Positions 20,876-43,900 of a stretch of DNA of 64,000 nucleotides are shown piece after piece. The position numbers and the translations under genes were made by a program. Origin of the DNA: Branchiostoma floridae (taxonomy: Eukaryota; Chordata; Leptocardii; Amphioxiformes; Branchiostomatidae); contig NC_049981.1 in the NCBI RefSeq assembly GCF_000003815.2, forward strand, positions 19,226,072 to 19,290,071, read 5' to 3'. The notes below the pieces were generated by a model. The model saw only the letters and a list, made by a program, of their open reading frames with translations. It searched no databases and was not told the origin of the DNA. Numbering within the stretch: the stretch's first letter is position 1; each line of letters starts with the position of its first letter.

Positions 20876-21183
20876 GGTTACTGGTATATCTGAGTACATG
20901 TAGGCAATGTGATGCATGCTGACACGTGTTCCTGATCCCTAACCCTACATTATGGAGGCCTCTCCTCTGATGTCTCAGAATCACACACTGGCAGCCATAG
21001 CTTCTGACACAGTGCTATACATCAGAGTTATGGTGCCATCCGTAATGGTCCAGGCAGCTGAGTGCTCTCCACCACCCAAGGCAAATGTGTTCTATTCATA
21101 CTGGCATGGCCTCTTGTGATTGGTCCAGGTGTGGTCACATGACCTGTTTGAAGGCCCAGCACCCATGGTGACATGTACCCTCA

Positions 21184-21303
21184 TGTTGGACGCCCGTTTG
21201 AGGCACTTGACATGGTCGCGTAAAAAAAAGATTAAAAAATCGCGGTGGCCCAAATCAGGCTATCAAAGGTGTCCTCGTAATCCCCACGAGTTGTTCTATC
21301 GCC
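21184..21303 (+). repeat. left terminal inverted repeat of the 5.4-kb element
   Basis: Pairs with 26474-26594. Shared blocks in order: 'ggacgcccgtttgaggcact', 'tgacatggtc(g/a)cgtaaaaaa', 'aatcaggct(a/g)tcaaaggtg', 'tcctcgtaatccc(c/a)acgag' and 'ttgttctat'. Weaker similarity continues inward, e.g. 'gtcaaagtt' and 'gcatggggttt'. Confidence 0.9.
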
Positions 21304-21723
21304 TACAGTACTCGTGTTGATTCAAATATTATTTCGGGATGAGATTTGAAGAGTCAAAGTTAGCCTTCAAACTGGCTCTTTATGCCTGTTTTTGGCCTCG
21401 ATTTCGCACTGCATGGGGTTTTCCGTGCAACCGATTACGATCATATACTTCCGGGTCGTACGAGTGAGGTCATTGAACGCGGGTCACCAGGTATCTTGAC
21501 GGTCTCAGTCTGCGCTAGGTTCGGTAGAGGAGGATTCAAGTCAGGCTTATGCATATTGTTAAATTAGGTTTGTTAAGGGACTCTTGGCGAAAGTATGTTT
21601 GAACTTGCAGAACGTTTTTTAAGTTTGTGTTTGTTCGTATCGTCTCGGCCCACGTTGCGAATCTGCAACGGTTGTAAGATCCCTTCCGAACGAACTAACT
21701 GGCATTCTCGTAGACATCAGGAG

Positions 21724-23960
21724 ACAAACTGTGTTAATTTGAATAACACACTTATAGAACAGTGCTGTAAGAAGTGTATACAGGGAACTAATAGCGGAAA
21801 ACGTGTTCGGGAGACCTCCTTGGGGAGACAAACTGTGTCAATTTGAATGACACACTTACATAATAGCGCCGTAAGAACTGTATGTAGCTTAACTAATAGC
21901 GATAAACGTGTTTAGGAGACAAACTATGTCAATTTGAATGGCGCACTTACATAATAGCGCCGTAAGAACTGTATGTAGCTAACAAATAGCGAGAAACGTG
22001 TTCAGGAGACAAAATGTGTCACTTTGAATGACACATTTATAGAACAGCGATGTTAGACCTGTATATAGCTATTAAGTAATCGCGTATTCAGGTGTCAAAC
22101 TGTGCCAATTTAAATGACACGCTTATAGAACAAAGCTAAAAGAACTGTATATAGCTAACTAATAGCGGAAAACGTGTTCAGGAGTCAAACTGTGTCAATT
22201 TGAATGACACACTTACATGATAGTGCCGTAAGAACAGTATATAGCTAACTAGGAGCGAAAAACATGTTCAGGAGACAAACTGTGCCAATTTGAATGACAC
22301 AATGCATTATAGAATAGCGCTGTAAGAACTGTATATAGTTAACTTGAAGCGGATGCGTGTTCAAATGTCAATCTATGTCAATTTGAATGACACACTTGTA
22401 GACAGCGCCCAAAGAACTGTATATAGCAAACTAATAGCGAAAACGTATTCAGGAGACAAACTGTGTCCATTTGAATGACACACTTATGGAACAAAGCTGA
22501 ATGAACTGTATACAGCTAACTAATAGCGAAAAACGTGTTCAGGAGACAAACTGTGTCAATTTGAATGATGCATTCATAGGACAGCGCTGTAAAAAAAACT
22601 GTATATAGGTAACTTAAAGTGTAATGCATATGCGTGTTCAGGAGTCCAACTGTGTCACTTTGAATGACACACTTATAGAACAAAGCTGAATGAACTGTAT
22701 ATAGCTAACTAATAGCGAAAAACGTGTTCAGGGGACAAATTTATTGTGTCAATTTGAATGATGCAATCATAGAACAGCGCTGTAAGAACTGTATATAGCT
22801 AACTTAAAGCGCAATGCGTATTCAAATGTCAAACTGTGTCAATTTGAATGACACACTTATAGAACAAAGCTAAAAGAACTGTATATAGCTAACTAATAGC
22901 GTAAACGTGTTCAGGAGACAAACTATGTCAATTTGAATGACACACTGACATAATAGCGCCATAAGAACTGTGTATAGCTCACTAATAGCGAGAAACGTGT
23001 TCAGGAGACAAAATGTGTCACTTTGAATGACACATTTATAGAACAGCAATGTAAGACCTGTATATAGCTAAGAAATCGCGGAAAACGTATTCAGGTGTCA
23101 AACTGTGCTAATTTGAATGACACACTTGCAGAACAAAGCTGAATGAACTGTATATAGCTAACTAATAGCGAAAAACGTGTTCAGGAGACAAATTAATTGT
23201 GTCAATTTGAATGATGCATTCATAGAACAGCGCTGTAAGAACTGTATATAGCTAACTTAAAGCGCAATGCGTGTTCAAATGTCAAACTGTGTCAATTTGA
23301 ATGACACACTTGTAGAATAAAGCTAAAAGAACTGTATATAACTAACTAATAGCGGAAAACGTGTTCAGGAGTCAAACTGTGTCAATTTGAATGACACACT
23401 TACATAATAGTGCCGTAAGAACTGTATATAGCTAACTAATAGCGAAAAACGTGTTCAGGATTCAAACTGTGTCAATTTGAATGACACACTTACATGATAG
23501 TGCCGTAAGAACTGTATAGAGCTAACTAGGAGCGAAAAACATGTTCAGGAGACAAACTGTGTCAATTTGAATGACACAATGCATTATAGATAGCGCTGTA
23601 GAACTGTATATAGTTAACTTAAAGCGGAATGCGTGTTCAAATGTCAAACTGTGTCAATTTGAATGACACACTTGTAGACAGCGCCCAAATAACTGTATAT
23701 AACAAACTAATACCGAAAACGTATTCAGGAGACAAACTGTGTCAATTTGAATGACACACTTACATAATAGCGCCGTAAGAACTGTATATAGCTAACTAAT
23801 AGCAAAATACGTGTTCAGGAGACAAACTGTGTCAATTTGAATGACACACTTATATAATGGCGCCGTAAGAACTGTATATTGCTAACTTAAAGCGGAATAT
23901 TAATGCGTGTTCAGAAGTCAAACTGTGTCAATATGAATGACACACTTACATAATAGCGCG
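21724..23960 (+). repeat. ~91-bp minisatellite array, direct arm (about 25 units)
   Basis: The word 'aaactgtgtcaatttgaatg' or a close variant recurs about every 91 bp (e.g. near 21724, 21828, 22184, 22830, 23281, 23645, 23732, 23821, 23917). Each unit carries, in order, GTGTCA-n7-TGACAC, 'cttacataatagcgccgtaa', 'gaactgtatatagctaacta' and 'atagcgaaaaacgtgttcag'. GTGTCA/TGACAC is a dyad inside every unit. A 'cccttcc/tt-acgaactaa-tggc' phrase brackets the array at about 21680 and 24008. Confidence 0.95.
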
Positions 23961-24169
23961 GTTTAGGCAGCGCTTTTCTGCAAGTGTGTCAGACAAGTTC
24001 TAAGGTCCCTTCTTACGAACTAAATGGCGTTCCTTCGTATATATATGACTTTAGGTGTGGTTATTTCATATCAATTAACAACTGATTACTGGAGTTTGGA
24101 CCATGGTAGGGTTTAAAGTAACTGAAATACTAACTTGTTCAAGTAAACTGTCAAATCTAGTAACTGCGC

Positions 24170-25040
24170 TGTCTGAGCTGAAAACTGTGTCAATCATATG
24201 ACACACTTTTGAAACGCATAATAACTATCTTATGACGGAAAACTCGCTCTGCCAAAAACTTTTTCAATCGAATGATTATACGATTTAGGCATATCTATTC
24301 AGTTTGCTAGTTTGTCACATTAATTGACACAATAGTTTATAACAGAAAACTTTGTCAGGAGGACGGCTTTGCAATTAATAACCGAGTGTTAAACAGTATA
24401 AAACTGCCTCATGACGGAAACTTTGGTGGACAACTGATCATTAAACAGTATTAAACTGATGGAAGACTTGGTCGGGACGACAACTGTGTCAATTAACAAG
24501 TTTTTTTAAAACTTATTAAAATTTCACAAAACGGAAAACCCTCACGGTCAGGACGACAACTGTATCAAATGACAGAAAACCTTGTCAGGAGGACAACTGT
24601 TATTTCATATGACACACTATGAAACACGATGTGAAATCAGTGTAAAATTGTCTTGATGGCGGGCGACTTTTTCAGGAGGGAAATTGTGTGAATGTGTCTG
24701 ACACCTTTGTAAGCGATGTTTGAACCGTGTCTTAAAAATGGAAAACGTTTTTCCGGGGGACAACTGTGTCAATCTATATCACCCACAATTAGAAAAGCGC
24801 TGTTTAACGTGTGCAAAATTGATCACGGAAAAAGTTGGACAGTAAAGAATTTGTGTCAATTTATATGACACTGGTAAAAAGTGTACTTTTGGCTGTACCT
24901 AACAACTTTATTGCTGAAAACGTAGTCAAAAGCACAGCTGTGTCGATTTGTTTCGACACATTTGTAGAATAGCGCCGAACGTATAGTATACAAATGTATG
25001 ACTAAATCTTAACGGCTAATGTGTTCAGGACACAAAACTG
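24170..25040 (+). repeat. decayed units of the same minisatellite
   Basis: The dyad persists in altered form, e.g. near 24190, 24325, 24600, 24680, 24855 and 24940 ('tgtgtcaatcatatgacaca', 'gtgtcgatttgtttcgacac'), with spacing still roughly 80-130 bp. The spacer text is largely lost. These look like older copies of the direct arm. Confidence 0.65.
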
Positions 25041-26070
25041 TGTCAATTATATACAGTTCTTAGAGCTTTGTTCTATAATGTGTCATATTGACACAGGTAG
25101 TCTTCTGAACACGTTTTTTGCTTTACGTTTGATATATACAGTTCTTACATACATCGCTGTTCTATAAATGTGTCATTCAATTGACACAGTTTGTCTCCTG
25201 AACACTTTTTCCGCTATTAGTTTGCTATATACAGTTCTTATTGCGCAATCTGCAAGTGTGTCATTCAAATTGACACAGTTTGTCTCCTGAACACTTTTTC
25301 CGCTATGAGTTAGCTATGTACAGTTCTTATTGCGCTATCTGCAAGTGTGCCATTCAAATTGACACATTTTGTCATCTGAACACTTTTTCCACTATTAGTT
25401 TGCTATATACATTTCTTATTGCGCTATCTGCACGTGTGTCATTCAAATTGACACAGTTTGTCTTCTGAACACGTTACACTTCGCTATGAGTTAGCTATGT
25501 ACATTTCTTATTGCGCTATCTGCAAGTGTGTCATTCAAATTGACACAGTTTGTCTTCTGATCACGTTACACTTCGCTATGAGTTAGCTATATACATTTCT
25601 TATTGCGCTACCTGTAAGTGTGTCATTCAAATTGACACGTACAGTTTGTCTCCTGAACGCTTTTCCGCTATGAGTTAGCTATGTACAGTTCTTATTGCGC
25701 TATCTGCAAGTGTGTCATTCAAATTGACACATTTTGTCTTCTCACGTGACACGTTTTGCGCTATTACATGTAGCTAAATAACGTTATAGTTCTTACTGTT
25801 CTGTAAGTCTGTCATTCAAATTGACACAGTTTCTCTTCTGAACACGTTTTTCGCTATTAGTTAGCTATGTACACTTAATGCAGCGCACAACGGTCCTTTA
25901 GATGTGTCATTCAAATTGACACAGTTTGTCTTCTGAACACGTTTTCCGCTACAAGTTAGCTATATAACGTTACAATTCTTACGGCGCTATTTTTTGTGTC
26001 ATTCAAATTGGCACAGTTTCTCTTCTGAACACGTTTTTCGCTATTAATTAGCTATATACTGTTCTGATCT
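25040..26070 (-). repeat. ~91-bp minisatellite array, inverted arm (about 11 units)
   Basis: Reverse complements of the same unit: 'gtgtcattcaaattgacaca', 'gtttgtctcctgaacac', 'tttccgctattagtttgcta' and 'tatacagttcttattgcgc', repeated about every 91-92 bp (near 25168, 25258, 25346, 25436, 25527, 25619, 25712, 25900, 25997). The orientation switch lies between about 25033 and 25090. Confidence 0.95.
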
Positions 26071-26473
26071 TAGTTAATCCCTCAGTCAGGCGCGACTGTC
26101 GGGTAACGTTACCTACAGTTCACTTTACCCACGACGCAACCTATTGGAATAACACCTTACAGATCATAGTGCTGTCTTATACTTCAAAGACATTTCAATA
26201 TTACTTCGTAACATGATAAAACGCTGACAGCACCATCAAAAGTACTTGTGTACTACACTACCGAGTGAGGTCCCGAGTGACTGCCGCAACGGTATAGCGT
26301 GACCCGGAAACAGTTGAACCTCGCCCACTAAGCGGACACCCCGAAACCCCCATGCGGTGCGTATTTCGGCTTGGAAACAATGGCGAAACCATAGGAAAAA
26401 GCTGTCGAAAATCGGTCAACTTTGACATTAGATATATACTTTCTCGTAAAAGTCCATCGCTTGAGATTCACAA

Positions 26474-26594
26474 GGCAGATAGAACAACTCGTTGGGATTA
26501 CGAGGACACCTTTGACAGCCTGATTTAGCCCACCGCAATTTTTAATCTTTTTTTTTACGTGACCATGTCAAGTGCCTCAAACGGGCGTCCAACA
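26474..26594 (-). repeat. right terminal inverted repeat of the 5.4-kb element
   Basis: Reverse-complement partner of 21184-21303. It ends ...GGGCGTCCAACA at 26594, followed by the CTCA duplication. Confidence 0.9.
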
Positions 26595-27003
26595 CTCAGC
26601 CCAGCATTACCAGCTATCTTTTGGCATCGCAACACAGAGTTTGCATTTTTTTAGTCAATACTGCTGCCAAAAAAGCCTCGGCCTTTACTCAAATATTCAG
26701 GCCATATGATTGTTTCTTGTGCTGATAGCCTTATAACATCAACGTGGGGATTGACTTGCGTTTATCTGGTTTATAAGGCTGCTGTTATTTTATGATGAAA
26801 GTGTCAAGTTTGTAGCATACTGCATTACTGGCACATGTACTGTATTCTGGAGAAGTTTTCAAGATAAAACAGTCTTAAGTCTACTCTCCAAGCAGAGGTT
26901 ATTAGGCTCTTGCTTTTGTGGGGATTTTTATTTTTGCCAGGTTTTCTTTTTGGACCAAAAGATATCACAAACGAGCCAGAGCCTAACATCTGTTTGGTGA
27001 GTA

Positions 27004-29989: not shown

Positions 29990-32518
29990 ATGGCCGAGGC
30001 TGCTGACTACGCCCTTCTGCAGCGGCCTGTGCCATCCAACCAGACAGGGGTGCGCCAGATCATTGAATGCTTCACTGCTGGCACAGAAGACATCAAGCGG
30101 CTGCTGCTTCACGAGGCAGACGTGATCCTGGAGTGCCGAGTTTGCCGCAGTCTGTACCGAGGTCTGCTCAACTTCGTGTCCCACAAACAGGAATACTGTG
30201 CCATGCCCTTCAGCGAATATGAACAGCAGCGACTTGGTATGTCTGGGACTGGGTCGTACTTCATGGACACACCCATGGCTCCAAAAGCAGACACATCTGC
30301 AGAGACGTCAATCACAGACAGTCTCTTACAGGGGGAAAGTCTTGTCGTGGTGTTACCTGAGCCGCCACCTGATGACCCGCAGCCTATTGTTGGCTCTGCA
30401 GCTGAGAACTACAGTATAGAATTCCAGTCCATCCCAGGGACATCCCAGGCTGTCTACCAGAGGGTGACCAGGCCAAAATTTGTCGCGGGATCAACCCCAA
30501 ACAGTCGTAGCCCTGAAAACAGTAGCAGATCAGGCAAGTTCGCAAAGATTAGTCCACCGGAATGCACCACATCTGACTACGATCCCATCCGGGCATACTG
30601 TCGCCTGTGCGACAAGACCTTCTCCTCTCGCCGCAACGTGCGCCGCCACATGGTGGAAGTTCACAAGAAGACCCTCCCCGGCAGAACAATCATTCCAAGT
30701 AAGAGTGGGGACTTTGATCTGGAAAAACTGATTTGTCGCCTCTGTAAGAAAACCTTCATCTCAAAACAGAGCATCAGACGACACATGGTGGAGCATCACG
30801 GCAAGTCACTGGAGATAGAGCCATCCACAGGAACTGAAGAGAAGACCACCTCCCCATCATCCTCTACATCCTCAAAGTCTGAAGAAGAGCATGACAGAGA
30901 CACAAAGAAAGGCGAAAAGAAAGATGATGATGATGGAAGGGAAGAGGAGGAAAAAGACAATGAAAATCATGCTGCAAATGACAAGGACAATGACTCTTCT
31001 TCTGACAGTGATGAAGAAGATGATGAAGAAAGTGACAAGGACAATGATGAGGAGAATGATGCAGAAAGTGTATCAAAAGACTTAAAGGTTAAACAAAACA
31101 TGTGCCAGCATTGTGACAAAGGTTTCAGTAGTAAAGACACCTGGAAGAAGCACATGGTAGATGTTCATGGTCTGGACCCCGATGGTGATGATCCCGACAA
31201 AGATTCAGAGGAGGAAGATGATGATGATGATGATGATGATGACGATGACGATGATGATGACGATGATGAGGATAAAGATCAGACAACACCATCTCGTCCG
31301 CCCAGCACGAGCTCAAGTGGCACACCTAAACTCCGCAGCAGCTATGACATGGATCGGAAGTGCTGCATTGTGTGTGATCGCTATTTCACCACGAAGAGGA
31401 ACCTTATCCGCCATATGGTAGACGTCCACAAGAGACCTATGTCACAGTTTAAGATTGGTGCTGAATATGACAAGCTGCTGTCTCACTGTGATCTGAAGCG
31501 AAAAATGTGTCTCATCTGCAAAAAAGTGTTTGCATCCAAGAGGAACACCAAAAGGCACATGGTAGATGTTCACAAACAGCAGCCCAGTGTGAAGCTGCAG
31601 AAAGACAACGGTCCTGAATCCTCCAGCTCGGAACCATCGACTCCTACTGAAGAGAAGCCAGCGGGTAAAACAACAAAGCTGCAGGCAAGCTATGATTTGG
31701 AGAAGAAGGAATGTCTCATCTGCAAGCGCAAGTTCAGCAGACAGCTCAACCTCCTCCAGCACATGAATGCCCATGGTCGCCCAGTCAAGTTCTTCCGCTG
31801 CCCGTTCTGTGCATACGAGACGAGGGAGAAGCGCCACGTGCTGCGCCATGCTGGTAGCGTCCACAAAAAAGGCCCAAAAGACCTGCAAAAGATTCACACC
31901 AGTTTGAAAACACGGGCAGTCATGCGCATGATTGGTCCTGATGGCAAGGTAAAGCCCATGGTGCAGCCAAGCTCAAAATCAGAGACTGAGAATGGGAATG
32001 GGAATGAGGAAAACGCCCCTGCTACAGGAAACGAGGTAAAGATATCAGAGGCTTTGACCCTACACAAGTGCAATGTGTGTAAGCGGGCATTTGCCAACAA
32101 GGGGACATACTGCAAGCATATGAAGTGGATGCATGGCAGAAACATCAAGCAAGAAGAAAACTCTGCAAAGAAAGAAGAACAGACAAATTCTTCTACCAAA
32201 AAAGAAAAGGAAGGCCATGAAAAACAGAGCATCACCAGCCAGTCTGCAGGGTCAAAGAAGTCTGGAACAGGTGTGACCAACAAACAAGAGGAGAACTCTG
32301 CCAAGAAAGAGGAACAGACAAATTCGTCTACCAAAAAAGAAAAAGATGCACATGAAAAACCGAGTATCACAAACCAATCTGCAGTGTCAAAGAAGTACGG
32401 GACAGGTGTGACCAAAATCATGGATGTACCGAACTTGAAATGCCTGAAGTGCAACAAGAAGTTTAGTGGACCACAGGTGCTACAAAGACATGTGCGACTC
32501 CACATGTCTCAGGACTAA
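29990..32518 (+). CDS. ZNF800: zinc finger protein 800 (ZNF800) orthologue, 842 aa
   Basis: Probable nuclear DNA-binding transcriptional regulator. The N-terminus (residues 20-70) carries 'GVRQIIECF...CRVCRSLYRGL', which I recognise from vertebrate ZNF800. Ten zinc-binding units are visible: a C2HC-type unit at 49-70, then C2H2 units near 204-225, 249-270, 372-393, 459-480, 507-528, 575-595, 604-625 ('FYKCPLC..YETR'-like in the family), 694-715 and 818-838. Between them lie acidic, disordered stretches, including a 17-Asp run (410-426) and a 45-residue direct duplication (720-764/765-809). The ATG sits in 'tcaccATGG', 49 nt after an acceptor (AG at 29939-29940). An in-frame TGA at 29948-29950 rules out a start further upstream in this exon. 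The coding part is a single exon, and a 5' non-coding exon is implied. At 842 residues it is longer than I recall for the human protein (about 660), mostly from linker expansion. An AATAAA at 34070 is a candidate poly(A) signal. Confidence 0.92.
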   Translation: MAEAADYALLQRPVPSNQTGVRQIIECFTAGTEDIKRLLLHEADVILECRVCRSLYRGLLNFVSHKQEYCAMPFSEYEQQRLGMSGTGSYFMDTPMAPKADTSAETSITDSLLQGESLVVVLPEPPPDDPQPIVGSAAENYSIEFQSIPGTSQAVYQRVTRPKFVAGSTPNSRSPENSSRSGKFAKISPPECTTSDYDPIRAYCRLCDKTFSSRRNVRRHMVEVHKKTLPGRTIIPSKSGDFDLEKLICRLCKKTFISKQSIRRHMVEHHGKSLEIEPSTGTEEKTTSPSSSTSSKSEEEHDRDTKKGEKKDDDDGREEEEKDNENHAANDKDNDSSSDSDEEDDEESDKDNDEENDAESVSKDLKVKQNMCQHCDKGFSSKDTWKKHMVDVHGLDPDGDDPDKDSEEEDDDDDDDDDDDDDDDDDEDKDQTTPSRPPSTSSSGTPKLRSSYDMDRKCCIVCDRYFTTKRNLIRHMVDVHKRPMSQFKIGAEYDKLLSHCDLKRKMCLICKKVFASKRNTKRHMVDVHKQQPSVKLQKDNGPESSSSEPSTPTEEKPAGKTTKLQASYDLEKKECLICKRKFSRQLNLLQHMNAHGRPVKFFRCPFCAYETREKRHVLRHAGSVHKKGPKDLQKIHTSLKTRAVMRMIGPDGKVKPMVQPSSKSETENGNGNEENAPATGNEVKISEALTLHKCNVCKRAFANKGTYCKHMKWMHGRNIKQEENSAKKEEQTNSSTKKEKEGHEKQSITSQSAGSKKSGTGVTNKQEENSAKKEEQTNSSTKKEKDAHEKPSITNQSAVSKKYGTGVTKIMDVPNLKCLKCNKKFSGPQVLQRHVRLHMSQD
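31217..31267 (+). repeat. GAT/GAC codon run encoding 17 aspartates
   Basis: A trinucleotide run inside the ZNF800 exon. It mixes GAT and GAC codons, so it is a stabilised and not a pure repeat. It is likely to vary in length between alleles. Confidence 0.9.
32147..32416 (+). repeat. 135-bp in-frame tandem duplication in ZNF800
   Basis: Codons 720-764 and 765-809 translate to near-identical 45-residue blocks (starting KQEENSAKKEEQTNSSTKK), with several synonymous differences (gaa/gag, tct/tcg). It sits between fingers 9 and 10 and keeps the frame. Confidence 0.92.
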
Positions 32519-40951: not shown

Positions 40952-43900
40952 TCACAGCCGTGTAATGATGACTAAGGCACAGATCACGCCGATGATCACG
41001 CAGGTGAACATCATCTTGGTGTGGAGCCAGACTGAGCCGCTGTCCTTGGGGGTGAAGCTGGTCGCCACGCCGCTCAACGTGTTGTAGTAGGCGTGCTTGG
41101 AGGCAGCGGCTGCGCCCTTCCAGGGATTTGGGCCCACCAAACGGTGATGAAACTGCAGTGTGGAGGAAGCAGAGGCAAAAACTTGACAACCATAACGTGT
41201 CCAGAACGCAAGATATCATAATTGGAAGTTCCACTGCCGTACCGTAGAAAGTGGCCTCTTGCTACATTATGTAATTGAACACCACAGAGTACCAGTAACT
41301 ATGATGACAGCCATGTGGCCCAAGTCATTTCCTAATTTGTTTAGAGAAGGAAAGGAAGGAGACGATAAGAAATGTAGCAAAAACATTAATGCCAACATAT
41401 ATTTCCCTTCCCTGATGGTAAACTTAAATTCACTTACCGGGTAGGCTGGGCCAAAGTAGTACATGTAAGCCAGCAGGGGGTCCTTGATAATCAGCCACAG
41501 AAGGTTGGGTTTTGCGCCGATCTCTGCTGCAATGTCATCGCGGTACACAACGTTGTTTGTCTGGTTATAGATAGATCGCTCAAATTATTTCTAGTAATGT
41601 CTATGGCAAACTTGGAAAAAAATCATCAAAGCTAAAGGTGCGCTCCCACCGCACCTGTGTCAAGCTTGCGTCACTGCGGGGTTCGAAATATACTCAACAA
41701 ATTTCAGAGATAAAGAACGAATTTTCTTTCTTTTACAGTGTGTATATTGTCGTATTCTAAGTTATACTTTTACGTATCACGCAATATTTAGATTATAAAA
41801 ATCGGAGAAAATTATTGTGTGACGCAGTGAACGAACCCCGCAGTGACGCAAGCTGGACACAACTGCGGTGGGAGCGCACCTTAACAGACTTCTCTCCTCA
41901 GAAGATATTGCATAAACACACATAGACAATCAATGTGAGGCTTTTGTTTGATTCTATGGCAACGAAGCAGTATATATATATTTCCCCTGTACTTACAACA
42001 GGTTTAAGGCGTCCAAATGTTGCAAGTACCATATCCTTGTAGACCTCAGTGTTTGCCTTCATGGTGTCGCTATTGGGTAGTTTGTGGACACCCTTGAAAA
42101 CCCTTCAAAAGTGGAAGGCAGATATAGTTGACACGTTTTGAAAATGAAAAAGAAGCAATTCTATAGTAACAATTTCTGAATTTTGCTGAGTTAAATAACG
42201 TTGTAAAGGATCATCCATATTAATCTTCTACTGTTCAAAATTATAACATACAGTTTATTTGCTCCAACTATCTAGAGTTTCTGGATCTCACACCTTAGCC
42301 AAATGATAGTACACCACAGAGATGCAGGACACTACAGTAGTGAAACTGCTGGACTGTTTCAATTGCCCACATCTTTTCACCTAAGGTCCCAAGCCAGGAA
42401 CCCTGATATCCAACACTTTGTGTCCTTGAATATCATCTACACACGCCTTTCTTTACGACATTGGGGTGTTGTAATGAGTTACCTGGCAGCCCAACGTGCC
42501 TGTAGTTCCATAAGGGGGAAGAGTGGCCCGTTACTCTGTCCGGCCCCGACCAGCGCCAGGGTGGGATGTGCCAGTCTCGTGGGAAACACCAGCTTGTAGA
42601 GGTCCAGCTTCTTGATATCAGCTACATCAGGAATAACAAAACATAACAAGAAGTCGGCAAAATCAAGGAAGGCAAGACATTGAAGATTTCATATATCCAT
42701 GAAATAGTTAGATTTTGTGAATTTCTGGACAAAATATGATACAATTGCGGACACAGTACAATTTGCTGTGCTCTGGGGCACATGTCCTTCTAGGGTTCAT
42801 GACTATTGGCCACGCGTCAATGTTCATTTTCTGCTAGCCAGTCAAAGAAAATTCAACAGCAGAGACCACCCATCAAGCTGAGAGTCCTGGTTTACAAGTC
42901 AGATGGGGAACAAACTTGGACCCGGGCCAGTAGGAACAAACTTACAAATGGACTCACCATAAGACGTAACTGACAAGAGGCTCATGATGAATTATGTTCA
43001 ATTACAATAGGTGAGCTCTTGTTAAACATGGGGAAAATACCATTGATCATGGCAATACGTTTTGTCCACAGACAAATCACCTTCAAGCTCATGATCAAGG
43101 AAACTGCAGCTGTTTACATAACCGGTTGCGAAGATCACCGCATCTACATCCCCAACTGTTGTACCGTCAGCAAAACGTGCAGAGGTGCCAAACAGTTTCA
43201 CGAGCTGGGGCTGAATAACAACATAGAACGTCAACGACAATAATGCTAACAACCACAACGACAGATACAACTCATGATTAACGTTATATTCCAAAGGATA
43301 ACATTCTAAAAGAAATGGCTGAAGGCAAAACTGGTACTAGCACTCACTTTACTTTAATGTTTAATAGTGTATTTTGTCCATGTACATTCAAACACAACGT
43401 TTCAAGTTTAGATTTAACATGCATTCTCTTAATTCCGCCAGGTGCCATTATACCGCCACCCAAAAAAAACGTTGTTATAGAGGCCTTCTCAAGATTGTCT
43501 TCAACACCTAAATATCTGAATTGTATCATCTTTAAGATATTTAACATTCAATGATCAAGACAATCTAGGGAAGACCTTTTTTACTAACGTTTTTTGAGGT
43601 GGCGGTATTATGGCACCTGGTGGAATTATGATAGTCGATGTTAGACCATACCTTGATGGAGACCTTACGAGACGCCAGACACAGCCCTATGTCATCATTG
43701 ATCGTGGGTGTTGACTGTGTAATGGGCTGTTGCCTCCCAGCAACTCCATACTTGTCATGGTCAAATCGGTTGTTTGAAAAATCTGACGGTACAGAGTGCA
43801 GTGTAAGTAGATGATCCGCTGTCCTATCGCTAATGCTATTGACAAATGACGCTTTATAGTCAGATTAAAAAGTTAGACACCTTAAAACAGAACATATTTT

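Follow-up and report, generated by a model that had tools for sequence, protein, structure and literature searches.

A foldback-type DNA element of Branchiostoma floridae that appears to insert 14 bases from a YY1-like site in most insertions examined

A stretch of 64,000 nucleotides from Branchiostoma floridae (contig NC_049981.1; its full length is called the window below) holds, at positions 21184-26594, a 5.4-kb structure in which terminal inverted repeats (TIRs) enclose two opposed arrays of a ~90-bp unit. The question raised by this locus is whether the structure is a mobile element or a satellite inverted in place and, if it is mobile, how its insertion sites are chosen. Copies were found dispersed in the genome, with their ends in pairs and their arms and arrays in one constant order; target duplications, paralogous element-free sites and a motif at a fixed distance were also observed. 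Very probably, the window element belongs to a family of foldback-type, non-autonomous DNA transposons that is moved in trans and inserts at a set spacing from a motif of YY1 type. Judged from the sequence of its flanks, the family appears to aim with single-base precision, 14 bases from a YY1-like site in most insertions examined.

The family and its insertion sites

The genome was searched in one assembly, with gaps, of 513,431,437 bases in 431 contigs (C and L numbers are our labels for contigs and loci). A query with the left end returned 133 candidates, and all 40 that were scored matched. Using a 31-bp end pattern with up to three mismatches, 65 ends were found (32 forward, 33 reverse), compared with none in the reversed control; 56 of them formed 28 pairs facing inward, and no pair faced outward. 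A 20-bp pattern at the same threshold gave 82 matches versus 30 in its reversed control. It added one end at C16:19087175 (one mismatch), pairing with C16:19073222, and its 16 unpaired matches at two to three mismatches lay within the control level, were treated as noise and were not used. In total, 58 of 66 ends stood in 29 inward pairs, 3.9-17.2 kb apart. Exact patterns found no match in viral and bacterial collections, nor did a left-end search in plasmids.

One pair, on the short contig C341, lies at a contig edge with Ns: the contig begins exactly at the terminal repeat (C341:1-10001), and a second end facing the same way is found 1.6 kb beyond the left end of the first element, which may reflect nesting or an assembly artefact. 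The 14-kb pair at C16:19073222-19087194 has altered outermost bases. From the 17.2-kb pair, 5 kb were sampled, revealing six forward units, right-arm-like sequence beside other sequence, 3326 N and no transposase.

Target duplications were counted in 28 copies; L045, with its truncated right end, and L048, which lies at a contig edge with Ns, were excluded. An exact 4-bp duplication was present in 13 of 16 copies and in 6 of 12 more, giving 19/28, and an exact 5-bp duplication in 2/28 (TACTG and TGTCC, both in the second set of 12); in a control with cross-paired flanks, 4-bp matches occurred in 2 of 240 cases. These lengths differ from the 8-10 bp of Mutator-type foldback elements. The first-pass annotation had read the CTCA on either side of the window element as the duplication of a mobile unit, and with 29 inward pairs and 19 exact duplications this held.

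Joining the flanks of the C158 copy into one query yielded 143 candidate places, 40 of which were scored. Two of these were the flanks themselves, and the other 38 (74-81% identity) aligned straight across the junction without the element. Empty sites, named in advance as a sign of mobility, were thus found, as paralogous places and not as alleles or other haplotypes; 35 of the 38 are on the same contig as the copy. The sequence into which this copy is inserted has dozens of relatives along that contig.

A 23-bp core of the unit had 806 exact matches in the genome. Among the 100 listed (on C1 and C2), 98 lay inside family pairs and the other two beside an unpaired end at C1:5.57; arrays independent of the ends were not seen among them, which bears out the earlier proposal that movement of the element carries the satellite with it. 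That a satellite was inverted locally, its ends being merely transposon-like, has nothing in its favour beyond the symmetry of the window element. It is refuted by 28 further pairs, matching duplications, element-less sites and listed unit cores inside elements, and is left with next to no probability. We conclude that the structure belongs to a mobile family.

The motif beside the insertions was first seen by eye in 12 flank pairs, after which the flanks of the window copy were viewed, and all 32 insertions were tested. The count leaves out four unpaired ends (C5:4.26, C11:10.9, C13:16.49 and C341:9971) and the C341 pair. With positions numbered from the element end outward, 22 of 60 flanks have [A/G]CCAT beginning at position 15, always on one side per insertion, which corresponds to 22 of 32 insertions. 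At all other positions up to 56 it was found in one flank at 10, one at 16 and one at 56, the scan beyond position 16 covering the 44 flanks that were long enough; in reverse orientation, no comparable peak was found in the flanks. The shorter CCAT stands at position 16 in 24 of 60 flanks. The motif was present in 8 of the 12 insertions of the discovery set and in 14 of the 20 outside it (window included). With a background of 0.0019 per base for [A/G]CCAT, the binomial tail is near 1e-44, and 2000 draws of random sites in the same flanks gave a mean of 0.11/32 and a maximum of 2/32.

The commonest letters at positions 12-23 of the 24 CCAT flanks are GCCGCCATnTTG, which contains the YY1 consensus, CCAT itself being there by selection. 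This consensus is given as CGCCATnTT / AAnATGGCG (PMC3680475), and CCATnTT is present in 11 of the 21 motif flanks of sufficient length (at least 22 bases). Hence, a YY1-type consensus was found at a fixed distance from the insertions. Inheritance of the motif from related flanks was ruled out by an average identity of 25% outside the motif among the 21 longer motif-bearing flanks, and a role as start codon was rejected, with CCATG open frames spanning 1-26 codons in five left flanks tested. In the 14-kb C16 pair, the motif GCCGCCATCTTGG is of YY1 type, with GCCAT at position 10 and not 15.

In the genome at large, the pattern CCAACA-N14-GCCATnTT has 80 matches versus 13 in the reversed control, and 13 of its matches are ends of the element family. 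One of the matches, C11:10917537, is an end outside the 32 insertions; the other three unpaired ends left out of the count and the C341 pair were not matched. Among 45 listed matches, 19 belong to one dispersed repeat containing CCAACATTCACCCATTATGTGCCATTTT, seemingly unrelated to the element ends.

YY1-type motifs are common near promoters, and targeting could be indirect if open promoter chromatin were favoured as such. GCCATnTT does occur at 0.00021 per base in the flanks further out, compared with 0.00008 in the window. Open chromatin, however, predicts neither exact spacing nor orientation, and position 15 is occupied in 22/60 flanks with its neighbours at 0 or 1. Because of this single-base spacing we regard indirect targeting as highly improbable.

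Such exact spacing, together with the orientation, points to a rigid complex that docks on the motif. The terminal repeats would be bound by a DDE-type transposase, provided in trans, which would insert the element with a stagger of 4 bp; strand transfer would take place 10 and 14 bp from the edge of the YY1-type motif ((C)GCCATnTT). These distances would be set by the occupant of the motif, either the YY1 protein or the transposase itself, to which the inserting complex would be anchored. In the first case, a chordate cut-and-paste transposon would be tethered to YY1, inserting 14 bp from the bound motif and placing its opposed arrays, several kilobases long, beside YY1-controlled regulatory sites, a proposal to which we give just under an even chance. 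In the second, the transposase would read GCCATnTT through a DNA-binding domain of its own, and the likeness to YY1 would be coincidental or convergent. This alternative fits the exact distance, as expected of a rigid complex, and also the terminal repeat, in which ACCATGTC reads outward at 26-33 bp from the end, such that one protein could bind both end and target. Against it, the full YY1 CCATnTT of 11/21 motif flanks is absent from the terminal repeat, and we consider a transposase reader credible, at somewhat less than an even chance.

Structure of the element and its arrays

The features of the window element are as follows.

21165-21169, minus strand: target motif ACCAT (ATGGT on the plus strand), its first base at position 15 outward of the left end; weak as a YY1-type site (ACCATGGG)
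21180-21183, no strand: target site duplication CTCA, left copy
21184-21304, plus strand: left TIR, beginning TGTTGGACGCCCGTTTGAGG, found by alignment and matched genome-wide
21184-21719, plus strand: left arm, 536 bp, 94.5-99.6% identity over the 20 loci compared
21671-21712, plus strand: 42-bp direct repeat flanking the forward array, outer copy (coordinates approximate)
21720-23963, plus strand: forward array, 24 units and a partial one, ~90 bp each, with the core dyad GTGTCA-N7-TGACAC
23964-25042, plus strand: decayed middle block of degenerate forward units, with similar units in the same place in L038, L043, L046 and L049
23996-24039, plus strand: 42-bp direct repeat, inner copy (coordinates approximate)
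25029-25058, no strand: internal forward-to-reverse junction, identical in the C139 copy (L032) and in 0/16 other copies compared
25043-26066, minus strand: reverse array, 10 units and two partial ones
26067-26594, minus strand: right arm, 528 bp
26473-26594, minus strand: right TIR, ending CGTCCAACA
26595-26598, no strand: target site duplication CTCA, right copy

Alignment and a hidden Markov model (HMM) built from the units confirmed that TIRs, CTCA duplication, opposed arrays and decayed block form one unit at 21184-26594, as the first-pass annotation had it. The TIRs, ~122 bp each, are 92.7% identical over 123 aligned columns, and CTCA adjoins both ends. The HMM located the forward units at 21720-23962 and the reverse units at 25043-26066, and it recognised weak forward-orientation units at 24676-25026 in the decayed block; the copy numbers from Tandem Repeats Finder were 23.5 for a 90-bp repeat and 10.7 for a 92-bp repeat. 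No matches were obtained in Rfam and tRNA scans.

The symmetry that had been proposed for the whole structure applies to its TIRs and arrays. In RNA folding, a 592-nt forward piece and an 867-nt reverse piece paired over 498 bases with -754 kcal/mol, as compared with -352 kcal/mol for pieces of the same orientation. The arms, ~530 bp each, are only weakly alike beyond the TIRs: their global alignment scored -15 (300 shuffles: mean -48.7, best -27), and their unique parts are well matched over the outer 123 columns only. Comparison of the unit with the terminal domain revealed no clear similarity, one weak match to the right arm in opposite orientation being equalled by 2 of 200 shuffles, and a derivation of the unit from the terminal domain was dropped.

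For comparison of copies, 20 loci were fetched around left ends. Seventeen were readable across and, together with the window, gave 18 copies; L034, L035 and L050 were left out of the copy tables. Among the 18, L045 is truncated at its right end and several copies contain runs of N. All 18 have forward units followed by reverse units, with 14-47 forward and 5-42 reverse units per copy, and the left arm showed 94.5-99.6% identity across all 20 loci, implying that arm sequence varies far less than array length. Across the window and 30 left-end loci, the pairwise divergence of left arms had a median of 2.05%. Between the last forward unit and the first reverse one, 12 of 18 copies have a gap of 120-127 bp; elsewhere it is 17 bp (window and L032), 144 bp (L039), 207 bp (L031), 849 bp (L047) or 889 bp (L033). 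Degenerate forward units precede the switch in all four copies listed fully (L038, L043, L046 and L049).

In 754 clean units from the 18 copies, the arms of the GTGTCA/TGACAC dyad were 96% conserved and its spacer 98%, compared with 86% for the remainder. For 490 of the 754 units, the nearest unit was found only in other copies and on the same side, and diagnostic positions distinguish forward from reverse arrays; both point to arrays that moved as parts of whole elements, with rare exchange between sides. The window copy and the C139 copy share an internal junction at different sites with different duplications (CTCA versus ATAG). The opposed arrays would thus ride inside the element and change in length, with the arms staying conserved. 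Growth by unequal exchange or replication slippage is probable from the length variation and from window units 14 and 5 steps apart that differ by 2-6%.

Coding capacity, contrary evidence and known systems

An autonomous relative with an integrase between the same ends, as envisaged in the first-pass annotation, was not found with the rve integrase model: of its 135 matches in the genome, none falls between the ends of a pair (29 pairs). Open frames reached at most 178 amino acids in the 21 interiors scanned, of which three were incomplete. Among the rve matches, 17 have open frames of 387-417 amino acids; one of these loci (L068, positions 1-1401; C15:3691000-3692400) encodes an integrase open frame with a chromodomain-like tail, which we take to be probably of Polinton/Maverick type. 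This family of ~417 amino acids was rejected as a partner, not being linked to element ends.

Several results weigh against a family moved in trans and aimed at a YY1-type motif. Seven of 28 copies lack an exact duplication of either length, 4 or 5 bp; of these, L031, L033 and C8:3.37 have one mismatch in 4 bp, L037 has one mismatch in 5 bp, and C13:1.93, C2:27.2 and C16:19.07 fit neither length. CCAT at position 16 is missing from 8 of 32 insertions, being absent at C8:23.6, C6, C2:27.2, C12:20.36 and C7 (left flank only for the last two) and shifted or altered at C12:4.55 (GCCAT at 16), C8:3.37 (GCCAC at 15) and C16:19.07 (GCCAT at 10). In the window copy itself, the motif ACCATGGG matches YY1 poorly. 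A search for a transposase between the element ends, confined to the rve model and the lengths of open frames, found none, with nine of the 29 pairs read only at their ends or over the left 1.6 kb; for two of these nine, C1:19.15 and C2:27.2, the listed unit cores show arrays. Moreover, the unpaired left end C1:5574549 has, 8.6 kb inward of it, an rve match (C1:5565900) in an open frame of 1232 amino acids, which is possibly that of a retrotransposon.

The ends and the duplication had also suggested a Ginger-like element. TGTTG ends fit the TGTNR of Ginger1 and Ginger2, the duplications are of 4 bp and occasionally 5 bp, the TIR length is within the reported ranges, and both families are reported from B. 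floridae, where Ginger1 has non-autonomous relatives with the same ends (PMC2836005). The reported targets CCGG/CCGT of Ginger1 and RTATAY of Ginger2 are, however, not used here, as none of the 19 exact 4-bp duplications is CCGG, CCGT, ACGG or TATA; the 29 pairs enclose no rve match; and the TIRs of the B. floridae families are reported as 77 and 161 bp, compared by description with ~122 bp here (PMC2836005). Since the duplications lack the Ginger target sequences, membership in Ginger1 or Ginger2 is not supported and we judge it unlikely. For IS481EU, reported from parabasalids, ends of TNT..AYA or TGT..ACA and mixed duplication lengths are described (PMC10045372).

The traits of foldback-type elements, internal tandem repeats in long TIRs and mobility with target duplications, are present here, the former in 18 of 18 copies. 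Closest in layout is Tetris, a foldback element of Drosophila virilis with long TIRs, an outer unique domain followed by tandem repeats, a non-coding middle, apparent non-autonomy and a repeat number that varies between copies (PMC4079207). It differs in its duplications of 8-10 bp, for which its authors suggest Mutator, and in its ~220-bp units, as compared with 4-5 bp and ~90 bp here. Tetris units also form separate satellite arrays and share 37 bp with the terminal domain, whereas no clear similarity between unit and terminal domain was found here, and the available text reports no motif targeting, in contrast to the fixed-distance motif here (PMC4079207). Galileo likewise has long, internally repetitive terminal repeats, with secondary transposase-binding sites within the tandem repeats (PMC3688188), a function that is hypothetical for the GTGTCA-N7-TGACAC dyad here. 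Galileo was placed in the P superfamily by its transposase, whereas the rve search and open-frame lengths revealed no transposase for the present family. Among the open-access papers listed in the searches, none matched, by title or start of abstract, as describing an amphioxus family of such elements.

Regarding site choice, Tf1 of fission yeast inserts at exactly -9 and +19 from the motif of the host protein Sap1 (PMC5741268), and the precision is to the single base in both cases. Tf1 is a fungal long terminal repeat (LTR) retrotransposon, whereas the present element is an animal DNA element with TIRs, one preferred spacing and a YY1-type motif. By analogy, YY1 may guide the window element's family as Sap1 guides Tf1. 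Dada elements are also target-specific DNA transposons with animals among their hosts, but they lie inside conserved multicopy small-RNA genes with duplications of 6-7 bp (PMC3706591); here, the sites have only a short motif in common, outside the duplicated site. A search for YY1-guided insertion found no matching title or abstract start among the open-access papers listed.

Significance and genomic neighbourhood

Eukaryotic cut-and-paste transposons are usually described by the letters of the duplicated target and not by a recognition site that lies outside it at a constant distance. In 22/32 insertions of the present family, the spacing holds to the single base, and the motif corresponds to that of an animal regulatory factor which is highly conserved. 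Site choice of a DNA transposon thereby becomes directly testable and may suggest how DNA insertion could be aimed; YY1 tethering, if true, would be the DNA-transposon counterpart of Tf1-Sap1 targeting. The family also implies that a minisatellite can spread as an opposed array pair inside a mobile unit, which, if transcribed, could give rise to long hairpins close to regulatory sites.

The element lies ~3.4 kb upstream of a C2H2 zinc-finger open frame at 29990-32515 on the plus strand of the window (Pfam zf-C2H2), which we presume to resemble ZNF800. Further along, flavin-containing monooxygenase exons (Pfam FMO-like) were recognised on the minus strand at 41270-41584 and 43025-43336.

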